From Arthrobacter sp. ISL-72 (GTDB lineage Bacteria; Actinomycetota; Actinomycetes; Actinomycetales; Micrococcaceae): 64,000 nucleotides of DNA. The stretch lies in NCBI RefSeq assembly GCF_018613755.1, contig NZ_JAGGPP010000014.1:1-64000 (forward strand). The letters are read 5' to 3'. The notes under the pieces were generated by a model. That model made no database searches, was not told where the DNA came from, and saw nothing but the letters and a program-made list of their open reading frames with translations. Positions 12,204-17,845 of the stretch are shown here, one piece after another. Positions within the stretch are counted from its first letter, which is position 1. The number at the start of each line of letters is the position of its first letter. A program made the position numbers and the translations under genes.

Positions 12204-13478
12204 CTAGCTGGCCTCTGCCGCGGCTTCGGCCGCGGCGGCGCGCCGCTGGGCGAGTTTGATCTCCAGTACGGCGTCCATGGCCTGCTGCACCCGGTCCGAG
12301 GCGCCGGCTGCGCTGAATTCCTGCTGCGCCTCCTCGAGGAGCACCAGTGCTTCGTCGGATTCCCCGGCAGCCTTAAGCGACTTTCCCAGCAGGAGTGATA
12401 CTTCGCCGGCCACGTGCCGGGCGAGGTCCTTCCGCTCGGCGTGGATCTCGCGGAGTTTCGCGACGGCAGCGGGGATGTCACCTGTGAGGTACAGCCAGCG
12501 CGCACGGATGAACGCCACTTCCAATTGGTCCGTCTTGTTGCCGCCCACGATGGACAGGGCCAGCTCGGCACGCTCGATCGCCGAGAGGGTTTCCGGCTCC
12601 ACGATGCCGGAGGAGAGCCGGACTGCGGCGGAGGCCTTGTTGAAGCGGGCCCAGAGTTCAATGTCGTTGGCCGGCGAGAGCAGCTTGGCCGCGCGCTCGT
12701 GGTGCTTGATGCCTTCCGGGTAGTCATGCCGCATGAAGGCAACGTTCCCTATCACCCAGGCCACTTCGCCTGCGAGCTGCGAGATGGATTGATCGTCCAT
12801 CTGGTCGTTCATGGCCTGGCAGTAGGTCCAGGCTTCGTCCAGCCGCCCGCTTTCCGCCAAGGCGCCGATCAGCGCCCGCAGGGCGCCGATGATCAGCGTT
12901 GAGCCCTTCGGCAGTTGCGAGCACAGTTCCACGGCCTTCTGCGCATGCTCGACGGCGGTGGCCAGCTGGCCCTGGCCGTGGCACACCGCGGCAAGCATCT
13001 GCCGGGCCCGCACGCCCAGGCCGGCGGACTCGGTGGCCATGGGGTGTTCGAGGAGGTGCAGCATGATGTTCTGGCATTCCTGCAGCTGGCCCTGCTTCAT
13101 GAGGCATTCCGCCTGCATGTAGGTCATGTTCCACCAGGCGCTGGTGTTCTTTCCTTCTAGGGCAATCTGGGCTGCCGTGGCGGCGTGGGCGGCTGCGAGG
13201 GGATAGTCCCGGAGGTCCCACGCCTGGCGGGCATAGAGCCCGGCGAGTACGTACTCGGCGTCGCTGACCGAGATGGGCTGGCTCCAGGCTTCCAGCGCCT
13301 TGGGTGCCAGCTCGAGCCGGCGTGCTAACTCTTCAATAACGTCCGCGGTTGGTTCACGCCGGCCTGTTTCCAAGAGGGAGATGTAACTGGGAGAATAGAG
13401 GTCCCTTCCAAGTTCTGCTTGCGTCAACCCACGTTCGAGTCGTTCGGCGCGGAGCTTCTCCCCGAATCCGTTTCCCAC
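12204..13478 (-). CDS. XRE-family regulator with TPR-like C-terminal domain
   Basis: A 424-residue protein. An N-terminal HTH spans about residues 7-58 (KLRAERLERGLTQAELGRDL, SYISLLETGRREPT). About 350 residues of helical, TPR-like repeats follow (for example AWNHAxxx-type helices such as AWTYCQAMNDQ, ALVLLEEAQQEFSA). This is the architecture of peptide-sensing RRNPP regulators (Rgg, PlcR, NprR) and of many actinobacterial TPR regulators. GTG at 13478 is chosen because GGAGG lies at 13486-13490 at ideal spacing; a longer opening to 13652 would overlap the divergent gene. The divergent neighbour, 131 bases away, encodes a small secreted repeat peptide, which I infer to be its ligand precursor. 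Confidence 0.75.
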   Translation of the reverse strand: MGNGFGEKLRAERLERGLTQAELGRDLYSPSYISLLETGRREPTADVIEELARRLELAPKALEAWSQPISVSDAEYVLAGLYARQAWDLRDYPLAAAHAATAAQIALEGKNTSAWWNMTYMQAECLMKQGQLQECQNIMLHLLEHPMATESAGLGVRARQMLAAVCHGQGQLATAVEHAQKAVELCSQLPKGSTLIIGALRALIGALAESGRLDEAWTYCQAMNDQMDDQSISQLAGEVAWVIGNVAFMRHDYPEGIKHHERAAKLLSPANDIELWARFNKASAAVRLSSGIVEPETLSAIERAELALSIVGGNKTDQLEVAFIRARWLYLTGDIPAAVAKLREIHAERKDLARHVAGEVSLLLGKSLKAAGESDEALVLLEEAQQEFSAAGASDRVQQAMDAVLEIKLAQRRAAAAEAAAEAS

Positions 13479-13518
13479 GGGTTTTCCTCCAATTCCGGAC
13501 AGTCGTTGTACCAAATGC

Positions 13519-13558
13519 TTGACAGTCTCTGTGGAAAACATTTTACAATGTATGTCAA
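13519..13558. promoter_or_regulatory. Overlapping divergent promoters with palindromic operator
   Basis: TTGACA at 13519-13524 with TACAAT at 13544-13549 (19-base spacer) could be the promoter of the peptide gene. An inverted TTGACA (TGTCAA on the plus strand, 13553-13558) faces the regulator gene. Between them lies ACATTTTACAATGT (13538-13551), with arms ACATT/AATGT. A regulator bound here could control both directions. These calls are by eye and unverified. Confidence 0.45.
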
Positions 13559-13609
13559 CAAGGGCAGTGCTGACTTTGTAACGAATCCGACTCGTATTGA
13601 GGAATCCTA

Positions 13610-13831
13610 ATGTTGAAGAAGATCGCAGCCGCCGCCGCTTTGGCAGGCGCACTGGCGTTTTCAGCCGCAGCTCCGGCAGTGTTGTCTGCCAGTCCTGTCG
13701 GCAACTGGGCGGATCAGCTGGGCAGCACTATTGCGATCGGCAACTGGCCCGATCCCATGCAGGCCATTGGAAACTGGCCGGACCCCATGGCTGTTCCGGC
13801 TTTCATCGGGAACTGGCCGGATCCGATGTAA
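13610..13831 (+). CDS. Secreted peptide precursor with three IGNWPDPM repeats (candidate signalling peptide)
   Basis: A 73-residue precursor. Residues 1-27 form a Sec signal peptide (MLKKI, hydrophobic Ala-rich core, cleavage after APA or LSA). The rest is almost only repeats: a degenerate VGNWADQL, then IGNWPDPM three times, separated by QA and AVPAF and ending at the stop codon. The three exact repeats use different synonymous codons (GGC/GGA/GGG, CCC/CCG, GAT/GAC), so the peptide rather than the DNA is conserved. SD GAGGA lies at 13599-13603. It is monocistronic, divergent from an XRE-TPR regulator and followed by a strong terminator. Proposed role: exported, processed, multi-copy peptide pheromone. 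A secreted antimicrobial or surface peptide is the alternative. Confidence 0.75.
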   Translation: MLKKIAAAAALAGALAFSAAAPAVLSASPVGNWADQLGSTIAIGNWPDPMQAIGNWPDPMAVPAFIGNWPDPM

Positions 13832-13862
13832 ACAGTTGAGGTACTTCCCGCAAGGGATCCAG

Positions 13863-13903
13863 GCTCCGGGACATGTGCGAACCATGTCCCGGAGCTATTT
13901 TTT
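13863..13903 (+). terminator. Strong rho-independent terminator of the peptide gene
   Basis: GCTCCGGGACATG (13863-13875) pairs perfectly with CATGTCCCGGAGC (13883-13895) around a seven-base loop, followed by TATTTTTT. It lies 31 bases after the stop codon, so the peptide gene has its own short transcript. Confidence 0.9.
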
Positions 13904-14025: not shown

Positions 14026-14102
<77 letters not shown>

Positions 14103-14195: not shown

Positions 14196-16028
14196 CTACA
14201 CGAGCGAGTCTTTCCAGGCCCCGTGCAGCTGGGCAAACCGCCCGCCGCCGCCGATGAGCTCCTCCGGGGTGCCGTCCTCCACCACCTGTCCGTCGTGGAC
14301 CACCAGGACGCGGTCCGCTGTCTCGACCGTTGACAGGCGGTGGGCGATGATCAGCGCCGTGCGTCCGTCGTCGTGCCCCGATACGGCCTCCATCAGGCCG
14401 GCGAGCCCGCTCTGGACCAGGCGTTCGGAGGGGATGTCCAGCGAGGACGTGGCCTCGTCGAGGATGAGCACAGCGGGGCGGGCCAGGAAGGCGCGGGCAA
14501 AGCTGATGAGCTGGCGCTGGCCGGCCGAGACGCGGCCGCCGCGCTTGTTCACGTCCGTGTCGAAGCCTTCGGGCAGTTCCATGATGAACTCGTGGGCCCC
14601 GACGGCCCGGGCCGCCTCCTCGATCTCTTCGCGGGTGGCTTCCGGACGCCCCAGGGCAATGTTGTCCGCCACGGACCCGCTGAACAGGAAGGCCTCCTGG
14701 GTCACCATCACCACGTTCCGCCGCAGGTCATGCGTGGTGAGGTTCCGCAGGTCGACGTCGTCCAGCGTGACGGACCCCTCGGACACGTCGTAGAAGCGGG
14801 CGATCAGCTTGGCCAGCGTGGACTTGCCAGCACCGGTCCGGCCCACCAGGGCGACGATCTGGCCGGCCGGAATGTGCAGGTCCAGCTTCGGAATGATGAC
14901 GGGGCCGTCGCCGTACCGGAATTCCACGCCGTTGAAGTTGATGGTGCCGCGGGCTTCAGGGAGCGCCACGGGGTTCCTAGGCGGCCGCACGGTGGGGATC
15001 TCCTCCAGCAGCCCCGAGACCTTCTCCAAGGCTGCCTGGGCGCTTTGGAAGGAGTTGTAGAACATGGCCATCTGGTCCACCGGCTGGAAGAAGCGCTTGG
15101 TGGACAGGATCAGGGCCAGCAGCACCCCCACCGCGAGGTCTCCGCTGAGCACCCGGAAGCCGCCGAAGAGGAGCACAACGGCGACGCAGACGTTGCCGAT
15201 CAGCACGAGCCCGGGCTGGAAGACGCCGTTGAGGTTGATGGACCGGACCGTCGCCTTGCGGTAGTCCTCGGCCAGTTCGCCGTACCGTTCGGCGTTTTCC
15301 CGCTCCTTGCGGAAGGCCTTGACTGCCCGGATGCCTGTCATGGTTTCCACGAAATGCACGATCAGGCTGGCCGACACCACCCGGGATTCGCGGAAGGCGA
15401 CCTGCGAGTGCTTCTGGTACCAGCGGGCCAGGAAGTACATGGGAACGCCTGCGGCCAGCACAATAAGCCCGCTGCGCCAGTCCAGGGCGAACACCGTGAC
15501 AGCGGTGAACACCATAAAAAGCATCCCGGAGGCCAGCGAGCTGACGCCCGAGTCCAACAGTTCACGCAGCGCTTCCAGGTCCGAGGTCTGGCGGGCGATT
15601 ATCCGGCCGGAGGTGTATTTCTCGTGAAACTCGAGGCTGAGCCGCTGCGTGTGCCGGAAAACGCGCACCCGAAGGTCCAGCAGCATCGACTGGCTCAGTT
15701 TGGCCGTCGATGTCACGTACAGGGCGGTGAGGCCCGCCGTGGCAACCGACGCCGCGACGTAACCGACGCCGGTGAGCACCAGGGGCAGGTTGTCCCCGGC
15801 CCGAAGGGCCGGAAGGGCGTGGTCGATGCCGAAGGCGATCAGCGCCGGGCCGGCTACCCGGGCCGCCTGTGAGAGGACCACCATGGCGATGGTCAGCCAG
15901 AACCTGAACCGGACGGGCCGGATCAGCGACCCCAGCAAGGCGAGCGACCGGCGTCGTACGGCTTTGCTTTCGGTCTTGCTCAGGTGGGCGTTGTCCTCGT
16001 TGGCGGTGCCGAACGTTGCGGTGCTCAT
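14196..16028 (-). CDS. ABC exporter half-transporter, canonical Walker B subunit
   Basis: A 610-residue fusion of a six-helix membrane domain (about 38-320) and an ATPase domain. Walker A is GRTGAGKS (396-403) and Walker [12 protein letters not shown] keeps the catalytic Glu. The signature is VSAGQ (500-504) instead of LSGGQ. It overlaps the partner gene by four bases (ATGA). The pair forms a heterodimeric multidrug or lipid exporter of the BmrCD/TM287-288/MdlAB type. Its altered signature faces the partner's altered Walker B, as expected for one degenerate and one consensus ATP site. Substrate is unknown. Confidence 0.88.
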
Positions 16029-17845
16029 CGGGAAACTTCCTCGGCGTGGGCGTCCGCCTGTTCTTCAAGCTCTGACAGTTCGGAATCGAGGTCCCGGGGT
16101 TCCGTTTCCAGGCTGGCGATCACATAGCGGTAGTGCTCGTTGTGAGCCAGCAGTTCCGAGTGTGTGCCGACCGCGGCGATCCGGCCGTCCTCGAGCAGCG
16201 CCACCCGGTCCGCCAGGGCCACGGTGGAGGGCCGGTGGGCGACGATCAGGGTGGTGGTCTCGGCGAGGACCTCGCGCAGCCGGGCTTCCACGAGTTCTTC
16301 GGTGTTGACGTCCAGGGCGGACAGCGGATCATCCATCACAAGCACCGTGGGCTTGGCGGCGATGGCCCGGGCCAGGGCGATCCGCTGCCGCTGCCCGCCG
16401 GAAAGGCTGAGGCCTTCCTCGCCGATCAGCGTGTCCACGCCGTCCGGCAGGGAGTAGGCAAAGTGCGCCTGGGCCACATCGAGGGCTTCCTCCAAGGTTT
16501 CCTGGCTCCGCTCCCTCGCACCGAGCAGGACGTTGTCGCGGACGGAACTGGAGAACAGGGTGGTGTCTTCGAAGGCCACCCCCACCACCGTGCGCAGTTC
16601 CTCCACGGGGAACTCGCGCAGGTCGACGCCGTCGATTGTGATGGAGCCGGTGGTGACGTCGTAGAGGCGGGGGACCAGCTGCAGGAGCGCGCTCTTGCCG
16701 CTGCCGGTGATGCCGACGAGGGCCATGGTCTCGCCGGGGCGGATGTCGAGGCTGACTTCCCTGAGGATCGGCTTGTCCGGGGCGTCATCGAACGCGAATG
16801 TGGCTGCGTTGAAGCTGAGCGCGCCCTTGAGCTGTGCGGGTGTCCGTGGCTTCTCCGGGCTGGTGATGGTGTTGGCCGTGTCCATGACTTCGAAGTGACG
16901 GTCCACCGCATTTTTGGCGGTCAGTGCCATGGCCAGCAGCATTCCGCTGAATTCCACGGGGGCGGCGATGACGGCGGCGGTGGCGAAAAAGGCCACCAGG
17001 GAACCGATGCTCAGCTGTCCGCCGGCTGCCAGCATGATGCCCACCACCAGTGCCGCGCCAAGGGCGAGTTCGGGCAGGAGCGTGACCACCATGCTGAACG
17101 TTGCCTGGTGGCGGGCCTTGGCAATTTCGGTCTGGCGGAGTTCCTCGGCCTGCTCGTTGAAACTTTCCAGGGCTTCGCGGCTGCGGCCGAATGCCTTGAG
17201 GACGCGGATTCCGTGGACCGATTCCTCAACGGTGGTGGCGAGGTCGCCGGCCTGGTCCTGGCTGCGCCGGGCCACCTTGCTGAAACGGGTCCGGAACCGG
17301 AATCCGTAGGCCATGATGGGCACCGCGGCGGCGAGGAAGATCAGGGCCAGCTGCCAGCTCATGGAAAACATCACGACGACGCCGATCACCACCGTCAGGG
17401 TGGTCACCACCAGCATGATGGCGCCGAAGGCCATCCAGCGCCGGAGGAAGTTCAGGTCCGTCATGGCCCTGGAGAGCAGCTGCCCGGATCCCCAGCGGTC
17501 ATGGAAGGAGACCGTCAGGTCCTGGAGATGTCCGTAGAGCGATACGCGCATCCGCGTTTCCACGGTGGTGGCAGGGTTAATGACGAATTGGCGGCGAAGG
17601 GCAACAAGTCCGGCCTCGGCGATGCCCAGGGCCAGGATGACCAGGGATGCGTTCCAGACCGCTTCGGTGGCACCGCCGGGACGGAGCGATTCGTTGACCA
17701 GGACGCGGAGAACCTGCGGGATGGTCAGCGCGACGACGCTCGCCAGGAGGGCGGAGATCAGCCCCAGCAGGAGCCGGGGGAGGATGGGCCTGACGTGAGG
17801 GTATAAACGGCTGATGGATCTGAAAAATGACGTCTGCTTGGCCAT
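16025..17845 (-). CDS. ABC exporter half-transporter, degenerate-site subunit
   Basis: A 606-residue membrane/ATPase fusion, first gene of the pair. Walker A is GITGSGKS (378-385) and the signature LSGGQ (481-485) is intact. The catalytic Glu after Walker B is Asp (VLVMDD, D506) and the Q-loop Gln is Glu426. These changes mark the non-hydrolysing site of heterodimeric exporters. The promoter region at 17846-17948 carries a MarR-like inverted repeat, which suggests control by a compound-sensing repressor. Confidence 0.88.

Follow-up and report, generated by a model that had tools for sequence, protein, structure and literature searches.

The question raised by this locus is whether a very short secreted repeat protein of an actinobacterium and the XRE-family regulator encoded divergently from it form a peptide-signaling pair. 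TPR receptors that sense peptide pheromones inside the cell have so far been described mainly in Bacillota. The original prediction, made from the window (the whole stretch of 64,000 nt of DNA that was analyzed), was that the small gene encodes a multicopy pheromone precursor and the regulator its receptor. Our comparisons make it highly probable that the two genes constitute an RRNPP-like peptide quorum-sensing circuit, composed of a multicopy exported precursor and a divergent XRE-TPR receptor. The features of the locus, in coordinates of the window, are as follows.

12207 to 13478, minus strand: XRE-TPR regulator of 424 aa with a GTG start at 13478, the proposed intracellular peptide receptor (Pfam and model)
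13516 to 13562, plus strand: conserved operator/promoter with TTGACA (13519 to 13524), TTTTACAAT (13541 to 13549), and TGTCAA (13553 to 13558), present in 166/171 loci
13599 to 13603, plus strand: Shine-Dalgarno-like GAGGA, 5' of the precursor ATG (sequence)
13610 to 13831, plus strand: putative pheromone precursor gene, 73 aa (ORF list; homologues in 205/206 genomes of the genus)
13610 to 13690, plus strand: Sec-type signal peptide, approximately residues 1 to 27 (by eye, with a presumed boundary)
13697 to 13720, plus strand: diverged repeat VGNWADQL (translation; the closest relative reads IGNWADQL)
13736 to 13759, plus strand: repeat copy 1, IGNWPDPM (translation)
13766 to 13789, plus strand: repeat copy 2, IGNWPDPM (translation)
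13805 to 13828, plus strand: repeat copy 3, IGNWPDPM, the last copy, up to the stop codon (translation)
13862 to 13896, plus strand: intrinsic terminator, a 14-bp stem followed by ATTTTTT (terminator scan)

The precursor reads MLKKIAAAAALAGALAFSAAAPAVLSASPVGNWADQLGSTIAIGNWPDPMQAIGNWPDPMAVPAFIGNWPDPM up to its stop codon. Rereading the sequence reproduced the predicted 73-residue ORF, in which VGNWADQL, which we take to be a diverged repeat copy, precedes three exact copies of IGNWPDPM, the last of them at the stop codon; as claimed, the exact copies differ at synonymous third positions only (the Gly, Pro, and Asp codons named originally, and also Ile). The signal peptide, called by eye and with a simple hydrophobicity rule, consists of MLKK, a hydrophobic core, and an AxA-like end and is kept in the precursor alignment. 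The gene was also said to have a ribosome-binding site, a terminator, and promoter candidates of its own. The first two were found again, as GAGGA ahead of the ATG and as a 14-bp stem with a T run after it. The promoter candidates did not hold up: the scan gave no sigma-70-type promoter with a 16- to 18-nt spacer, and TTGACA and TACAAT (13544 to 13549) are 19 nt apart, both within the conserved operator. On the other strand, Pfam (HTH_31 at 1.9e-11, HTH_3, and TPR_12 at 5.9e-9) and an analysis of the start agreed with the description of a 424-residue XRE regulator with a TPR-like domain, divergent from the precursor. An upstream-extended reading of 445 aa is interrupted by a stop in 41 of 117 relatives, so that the 424-aa GTG form is the likely one. 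The AlphaFold model of the regulator is an all-helical repeat (pLDDT, 92.8).

Within the genus, 205 of 206 genomes contained a match to the precursor (E value of ≤1e-5), the exception being an assembly in ca. 730 contigs. The named relatives came from Arthrobacter, Pseudarthrobacter, and Paenarthrobacter (80 of 127 loci were retained). The exact GNWPDP-coding pattern was present in 61 of 295 genomes of the family, including 24/24 of those sampled from the genus and 4/4 of genus g40; elsewhere in the family, some isolated matches are probably due to chance. The same pattern written backwards gave at most one match in any of the 295 genomes. A chance origin of the repeat was ruled out by its conservation and by the controls (backwards pattern, shuffles, and control windows). 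Within the family, the regulator had homologues in 66 of 149 genomes, representing 17 of 32 genera (E value of ≤1e-15), and a profile search recovered it in 15/149 genomes across the order and 27/197 across the class (each with an E value of ≤1e-20).

We scanned 171 loci at which the identity of the regulator was 50% or more (a count of loci, many of them from one genus and some from the same genome twice). Our script detected a divergent precursor in 166, which corresponded to 141 distinct pairs, and among the five misses a precursor was visible by eye in three (L042, L095, and L098). Orthologues keep the pair, and short GNWPDPM-type ORFs do lie beside XRE-TPR genes in other Micrococcaceae, the check that had been proposed. 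The proposal was expected to fail if orthologues of the small gene were never beside the regulator or had no repeat. On the first point, the pair is kept, save for some distant orthologues at the purC locus without a visible precursor. On the second, most precursors have several copies, but the repeat is not essential: just one intact unit is present in 5 of 142 distinct rows, and the only unit of L042 is the altered SGNWPYPV.

A search with tblastn gave no relatives of the precursor (P0001) in phages or plasmids and none of the query protein P0002 in phages. In plasmids, P0002 matched seven records, all below 30% identity, and pattern-based scans of viral contigs yielded no relative. An origin from a mobile element was ruled out by these phage, plasmid, and viral-contig searches.

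Comparison of the octapeptide copies within each precursor bore out the claim that selection acts on the peptide. Over 384 copy pairs from 135 distinct precursors with at least two copies, pS was 0.53 and the pN/pS ratio 0.016. Peptide residue 1 was uniform among the copies in 133 of these precursors (the largest value in 2,000 shuffles was 65) and residue 8 in 125 (largest value, 91), with shuffles that ignore relatedness. Because synonymous sites are so diverged between copies, recent copying is no explanation of this uniformity. On the regulator tree (131 rows), no fewer than 10 changes of residue 1 and 6 of residue 8 are required, and such changes appear to have been made nearly always in every copy of a precursor, the copies changing in concert. 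A structural or adhesive function outside the cell, with no role in signaling, is hardly credible: tandem repeats and a signal peptide would suit such a function, but the precursor is very short, its copies are uniform at residues 1 and 8 despite their synonymous divergence, and the motif varies by lineage together with the receptor.

The last of these points could be followed residue by residue. In a tree of 125 close receptors, the rows with an Ile peptide (72/72) had His at residue 167, and those with a Val or Thr peptide (53/53) had Gln, with six changes each for receptor residue 167 and peptide residue 1. Pagel's test of correlated evolution gave a likelihood ratio of 46.9 for this pair (P = 1.6e-9), and ratios of 31.5, 27.0, and 22.9 for receptor residues 127, 132, and 166, respectively, against peptide residue 1, figures to be read in the knowledge that the rows share ancestry and that six changes on a quick-method tree are few events. 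Among 100,000 simulated traits with 5 to 8 changes, none matched the residue 167 pattern (best agreement, 118/125), and a test restricted to well-supported branches gave only four pairs, all in favor (P = 0.125). Residue numbers are those of the 424-aa form, and both trees were built by a quick method. The regulator tree dropped 14 of 145 rows, in which the receptor reading broke at an upstream stop, and the 125-receptor tree further omitted six distant rows (L091 to L094, L096, and L097).

With the dropped rows restored, the 142 distinct rows comprised 79 with Ile and His, 45 with Val and Gln, 9 with Thr and Gln, 5 with Val and His, and 4 with Leu. The rule had a clear range of validity. At a receptor identity of ≥74.6%, 132/132 rows agreed with it (79 Ile-His and 53 Val/Thr-Gln), while it was broken in nine of ten distinct rows with receptors under 69% identical, namely, all five rows of genus g40, where a Val peptide goes with His, and four with Leu; L092 (Val-Gln, 59.5%) was the sole distant row in agreement. 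L042 (73.6% identity, Ser peptide with Gln167) has the altered unit and stands outside this count. For peptide residue 8, no receptor residue was a significant partner after correction (best P value of about 0.02), and the Thr-specific receptor residues 129 and 168 depend on a single clade. Residues 127 and 167, which are 40 apart, are located near the C-terminal ends of model helices 112-129 and 152-169. From the TPR_2 match, these would be the A-helices of neighboring repeats and hence would line the groove. The coevolution of residues 127, 132, 166, and 167 with peptide residue 1 lends indirect support to peptide binding in the TPR groove.

The region between the two genes carries a conserved operator. 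TTGACA and TGTCAA enclose a TTTAC core upstream of the precursor, and the gap between them is exactly 28 nt (TTGACA-N28-TGTCAA) in each of the 166 matching loci. Of the five loci without this pattern, L093 to L095 show GTGACA as a variant; at L099 and L106, both the complete element and a visible precursor are missing. An operator profile (R1) detected a single site in the genome of origin, that at 13516 to 13562 (E value of 1.2e-14); it was made from 22 of 60 distinct operators, and diverged sites could escape it. R1 found no site at the orphan-precursor and TPR-only loci tried and matched at 4 of 34 XRE loci, mostly distant. The core pattern, with up to two mismatches allowed, gave in the same genome the precursor's own promoter and one two-mismatch site, and its backwards control also gave one. 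A wide regulon was accordingly rejected, R1 yielding the own promoter alone and the core pattern giving, besides that promoter, no more sites than its backwards control. As one operator was recognizable in the genome, the circuit seems to act on itself. The pairing, the concerted copies, the coevolution of residues 167, 127, and 132, and the operator all support the proposal of a multicopy pheromone precursor with the regulator as its receptor.

Past the regulator lie purC (SAICAR_synt) and purD (GARS). Past the precursor terminator there is a tRNA-Pro(cgg) gene (14026 to 14102, minus strand) and, beyond it, two ABC transporter genes (Pfam). No recognized modification enzyme was found among the nearest neighbors of the pair. 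Multicore secreted precursors beside a regulator occur in bacteriocin/RiPP-like systems, so the precursor could be a product of that kind, with the XRE-TPR protein merely regulating it in response to another cue, and there was a subthreshold NCBIfam match to a RiPP precursor (E value of 0.13). We consider this unlikely. The nearest genes are purC, purD, the tRNA gene, and the two transporter genes rather than modification enzymes, the receptor residues follow peptide residue 1, and relatives without an HTH retain the same arrangement (see below), so that transcriptional control of the peptide is no reason for their pairing. The two ABC transporter genes (14196 to 17845) adjoin the pair and are also kept in distant loci, such as L109 and L161; either shared synteny or a connection with export would account for this adjacency.

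For the wider family in the Micrococcaceae, we used 85 loci (L074 to L158) picked by receptor similarity alone, in which a divergent signal-peptide ORF with WP was sought. Such an ORF was present at 25/25 loci with an HTH-less receptor and 34/60 XRE-TPR loci (L135 and L152 being doubtful), versus 0/85 on the other strand and 6/258 control strand-windows. In the window itself, the detector was positive in 6/252 slices, 2 of them the precursor. Of the 26/60 XRE-TPR loci without a precursor by this detector, seven had by eye a short leaderless candidate ending at or near GDWPD, GNWPD, or IGDWPHA. The motifs were lineage specific (GNWPDA, GNWPN, GDWPH, GEWPH, WIWPD, GIWPN, GWWPN, GDWPN, NNWPY, GSWPF, GLWPY, and others), with up to eight copies, variants included, in GDWPH precursors and at least five AVGNWP units in those of genus g36 (L130, L132, and L142). 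As judged from these motifs, the system is not confined to the genus of origin or to the GNWPDP peptide.

Some members of the family deviate from this arrangement. Several purC-adjacent XRE-TPR orthologues have no visible xWPx precursor (L099, L101, L110 to L112, and L121), and L101, L111, L112, and L121 share the sequence AWPSLAT..VTPG, encoded in a small upstream ORF. Receptors of this kind may be eavesdroppers or users of unrecognized peptides. Genus g28 has extra XRE-TPR paralogues (L105 to L108 and L116) without a recognizable precursor, as well as tiny ORFs (L162, L163, and L308 to L310) that have no evident signal peptide and whose last codons encode GNWPDP[MIV]. In the g28 stretches L162 and L163, we found no homologue of the XRE-TPR regulator.

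The HTH-less branch is represented in the genome of origin by a TPR-only protein of 342 aa (L104:987-4308; G000:C15:64000-71000), beside a precursor ending in QIGWWPD. The same locus also holds a GGDEF-EAL protein (GGDEF, 9e-43; EAL, 4.5e-74) and a histidine kinase gene. At all 25 TPR-only loci, the receptor has no HTH and is paired with an exported-peptide ORF. A GGDEF-EAL homologue was in view at 21/25 of them versus 0/32 XRE loci with comparable flanks, the absence having been judged on 32 XRE loci among L105 to L161 with one GGDEF-EAL protein as the query (at L074 to L103, the flank is only about 1.5 kb). The model of the TPR-only protein (pLDDT, 95.7) is a TPR superhelix of helix pairs, with LGN as the closest match and NprR and Rap lower. 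In this sister branch, every HTH-less receptor has an xWPx precursor of its own, and the output may run through the neighboring GGDEF-EAL enzyme. A link from peptide to c-di-GMP is hypothetical, because it comes from gene neighborhood only. In the literature searched, a single paper was found to mention RRNPP, c-di-GMP, and diguanylate cyclase together, and its subject is fatty-acid signals.

The histidine kinase gene beside the TPR-only paralogue bears on another explanation, namely, that the peptide is a genuine signal sensed outside the cell by another receptor, such as a histidine kinase or a transporter, and that the XRE-TPR protein does no more than regulate the peptide gene. Peptide import is indeed a presumed step, and this explanation would do without it. 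However, a histidine kinase homologue was in view at just 7/25 TPR-only loci, and the coevolving residues sit on neighboring TPR helices of the XRE-TPR protein. We give extracellular sensing little credence, slightly less than a bacteriocin-like product, and retain the intracellular peptide receptor as the preferred reading.

In some genomes there are also orphan precursors, that is, a second ORF with the same units, no signal peptide, and no receptor beside it. The orphan in the genome of origin (L031:5207-5392; G000:C56:505000-516000) contains IGNWPDPM twice and IGWWPDAV once, units that resemble the ligands of both receptors, XRE-TPR and TPR-only. It is flanked by a gene without a Pfam match and a glycosyltransferase gene. 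When the orphan and the TPR-only precursor were compared in seven genomes, a WW unit was found in three orphans and agreed with the TPR-only precursor in each (WWPD in both for G000 and G020, WWPN in both for G180). The orphans of G282, G028, G002, and G036 have no WW unit. By supplying ligands for both receptors, leaderless orphan precursors could connect the two branches in one cell.

We then analyzed 33 regulator loci of the order and class that belong to other families. At 17 of them (L191, L193 to L196, L200 to L207, L209, L174, L176, and L178), the regulator faces a signal-peptide ORF with Cys-Cys not more than four residues from its end, and 5 have a divergent ORF with WP; 3 have both, which makes 19 in all; at 3 of the remaining loci such an ORF was on the same strand, and at 11 the detector found none. 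As a control, the detector gave one match in ca. 2,556 one-kilobase strand windows of other loci (a window count that includes these 33 loci) and 4/95 in stretches of the same 33 loci, a set that includes upstream regions on the other strand. Examples of these C termini are QWPGMCC, NWPTMCC, HPPTCC, and PGMYCC, and L172 has three copies of GGSWPT. We regard the secreted Cys-Cys micropeptides as a separate peptide class. Taken further, we lean toward the reading that Actinobacteria possess a large, ancient, and unnoticed class of intracellular peptide-pheromone systems, built from XRE-TPR receptors and divergent secreted microprecursors, with at least two peptide codes and two outputs. The codes would be xWPx in Micrococcaceae and C-terminal Cys-Cys in other families, and the outputs transcription (HTH receptors) and c-di-GMP turnover (TPR-only receptors near GGDEF-EAL).

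How close the pair is to known systems was assessed from its sequence and its fold. The available text of a survey of RRNPP systems delimits them by a propeptide of 10 to 100 aa, secreted by Sec and matured outside the cell, a receptor of 250 to 500 aa with TPRs, and adjacent genes (PMC10075063). Here, a propeptide of 73 aa (Sec signal by eye) and a receptor of 424 aa with the TPR_12 match are encoded by adjacent divergent genes. To our knowledge, all RRNPP(A) receptors but Rap have an N-terminal XRE-type HTH, and the HTH_31 match places one in the regulator. The regulator family profile matched PlcR over residues 2 to 210, spanning HTH and TPR, with an E value of 3.4e-11, although designed PPRs outscored it (1.6e-14). 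The regulator model matched Rap-pheromone complexes, NprR, and AimR at Z scores of 20 to 24, and generic TPR folds (LGN, MalT domain III, and APPBP2) at equal or higher values. Because generic repeat proteins match equally well or better in both profile and fold, the fold is no proof of pheromone binding, and fold comparison was discarded as a discriminator, RRNPP and generic TPR proteins not being separated. We call the pair RRNPP-like in the sense that it would work like these systems; the term is not meant to imply shared ancestry of the receptor with PlcR, Rap, NprR, and AimR.

The pair resembles PlcR-PapR in having an XRE HTH and TPR receptor beside an exported-propeptide gene and in the profile match. 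It differs in phylum, in the length of the receptor (424 residues versus 293 in the PlcR PDB sequence), in its multicopy octapeptide with a W-P core, and in having one recognizable operator, whereas PlcR controls a regulon. Rap and NprR are TPR receptors of imported peptides, to which the regulator model is similar at Z scores of about 23 (Rap-peptide complexes) and 22 (NprR). The actinobacterial TPR-only proteins (about 342 aa) share with Rap a TPR domain without an HTH and the adjoining exported-peptide gene (25/25 loci), but they are nearest to LGN superhelices and mostly near GGDEF-EAL. In Rap, a response regulator is bound by an N-terminal bundle of three helices; the TPR-only model is a row of helix pairs, with LGN-type folds scoring best and Rap lower. 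AimR-AimP (arbitrium) and ComR-ComS are small dedicated circuits with few DNA targets, a likeness to the present one, and AimR is at a Z score of about 21; here, in contrast, the genes are chromosomal and syntenic with purC and purD, and no phage, viral, or plasmid relative of the precursor was found.

According to the accessible portion of PMC9765709, the propeptides that go with AimR, NprR, Rap, and PlcR are often multicopy. Phage Rap systems described in the available portion of PMC11343458 have tandem pheromone propeptides, with several pheromone copies per exported propeptide as here, but peptide, phylum, and receptor family are all different. As far as their accessible text goes, one survey of RRNPP systems covers Bacillota and viruses only (PMC10075063) and another makes no mention of Actinobacteria (PMC9765709). 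Signals of Actinomycetota are typically enzyme-made small molecules in the former (PMC10075063, same portion), and cyclic or modified peptides and butyrolactones in the available part of an older review (PMC4748050). No description of the pair or the peptide was found in the literature searched, whose scope left out preprints and most subscription papers.

The gene pair, its repeats, the selection on the peptide, the receptor-peptide coevolution, and the conserved operator, found once in the genome of origin, can all be read from the sequences themselves, and they suggest the following scheme. The precursor would be exported by Sec, and proteolysis would release several GNWPDP-type octapeptides, approximately [I/V/T]GNWPDP[M/A/V]. 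The peptide would then be reimported, probably via an oligopeptide permease; the genome of origin has ten SBP_bac_5 matches, candidates that could serve this import. Inside the cell, the divergent XRE-TPR protein would take it up in its TPR groove, in the vicinity of residues 127 and 167, and a receptor dimer, either peptide bound or free, would act on TTGACA-N28-TGTCAA with a sign of regulation that we infer. The receptor would thereby set transcription of the precursor, and probably that of its own gene as well, giving a self-reinforcing and lineage-specific loop.

The phylum concerned is that of soil and antibiotic-producing bacteria. A pair that is nearly universal in Arthrobacter and its relatives, and in which a receptor residue predicts residue 1 of the peptide, is a directly testable system. 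If it is true that the TPR-only branch acts on its GGDEF-EAL neighbor, a peptide signal would be joined to c-di-GMP in one step.
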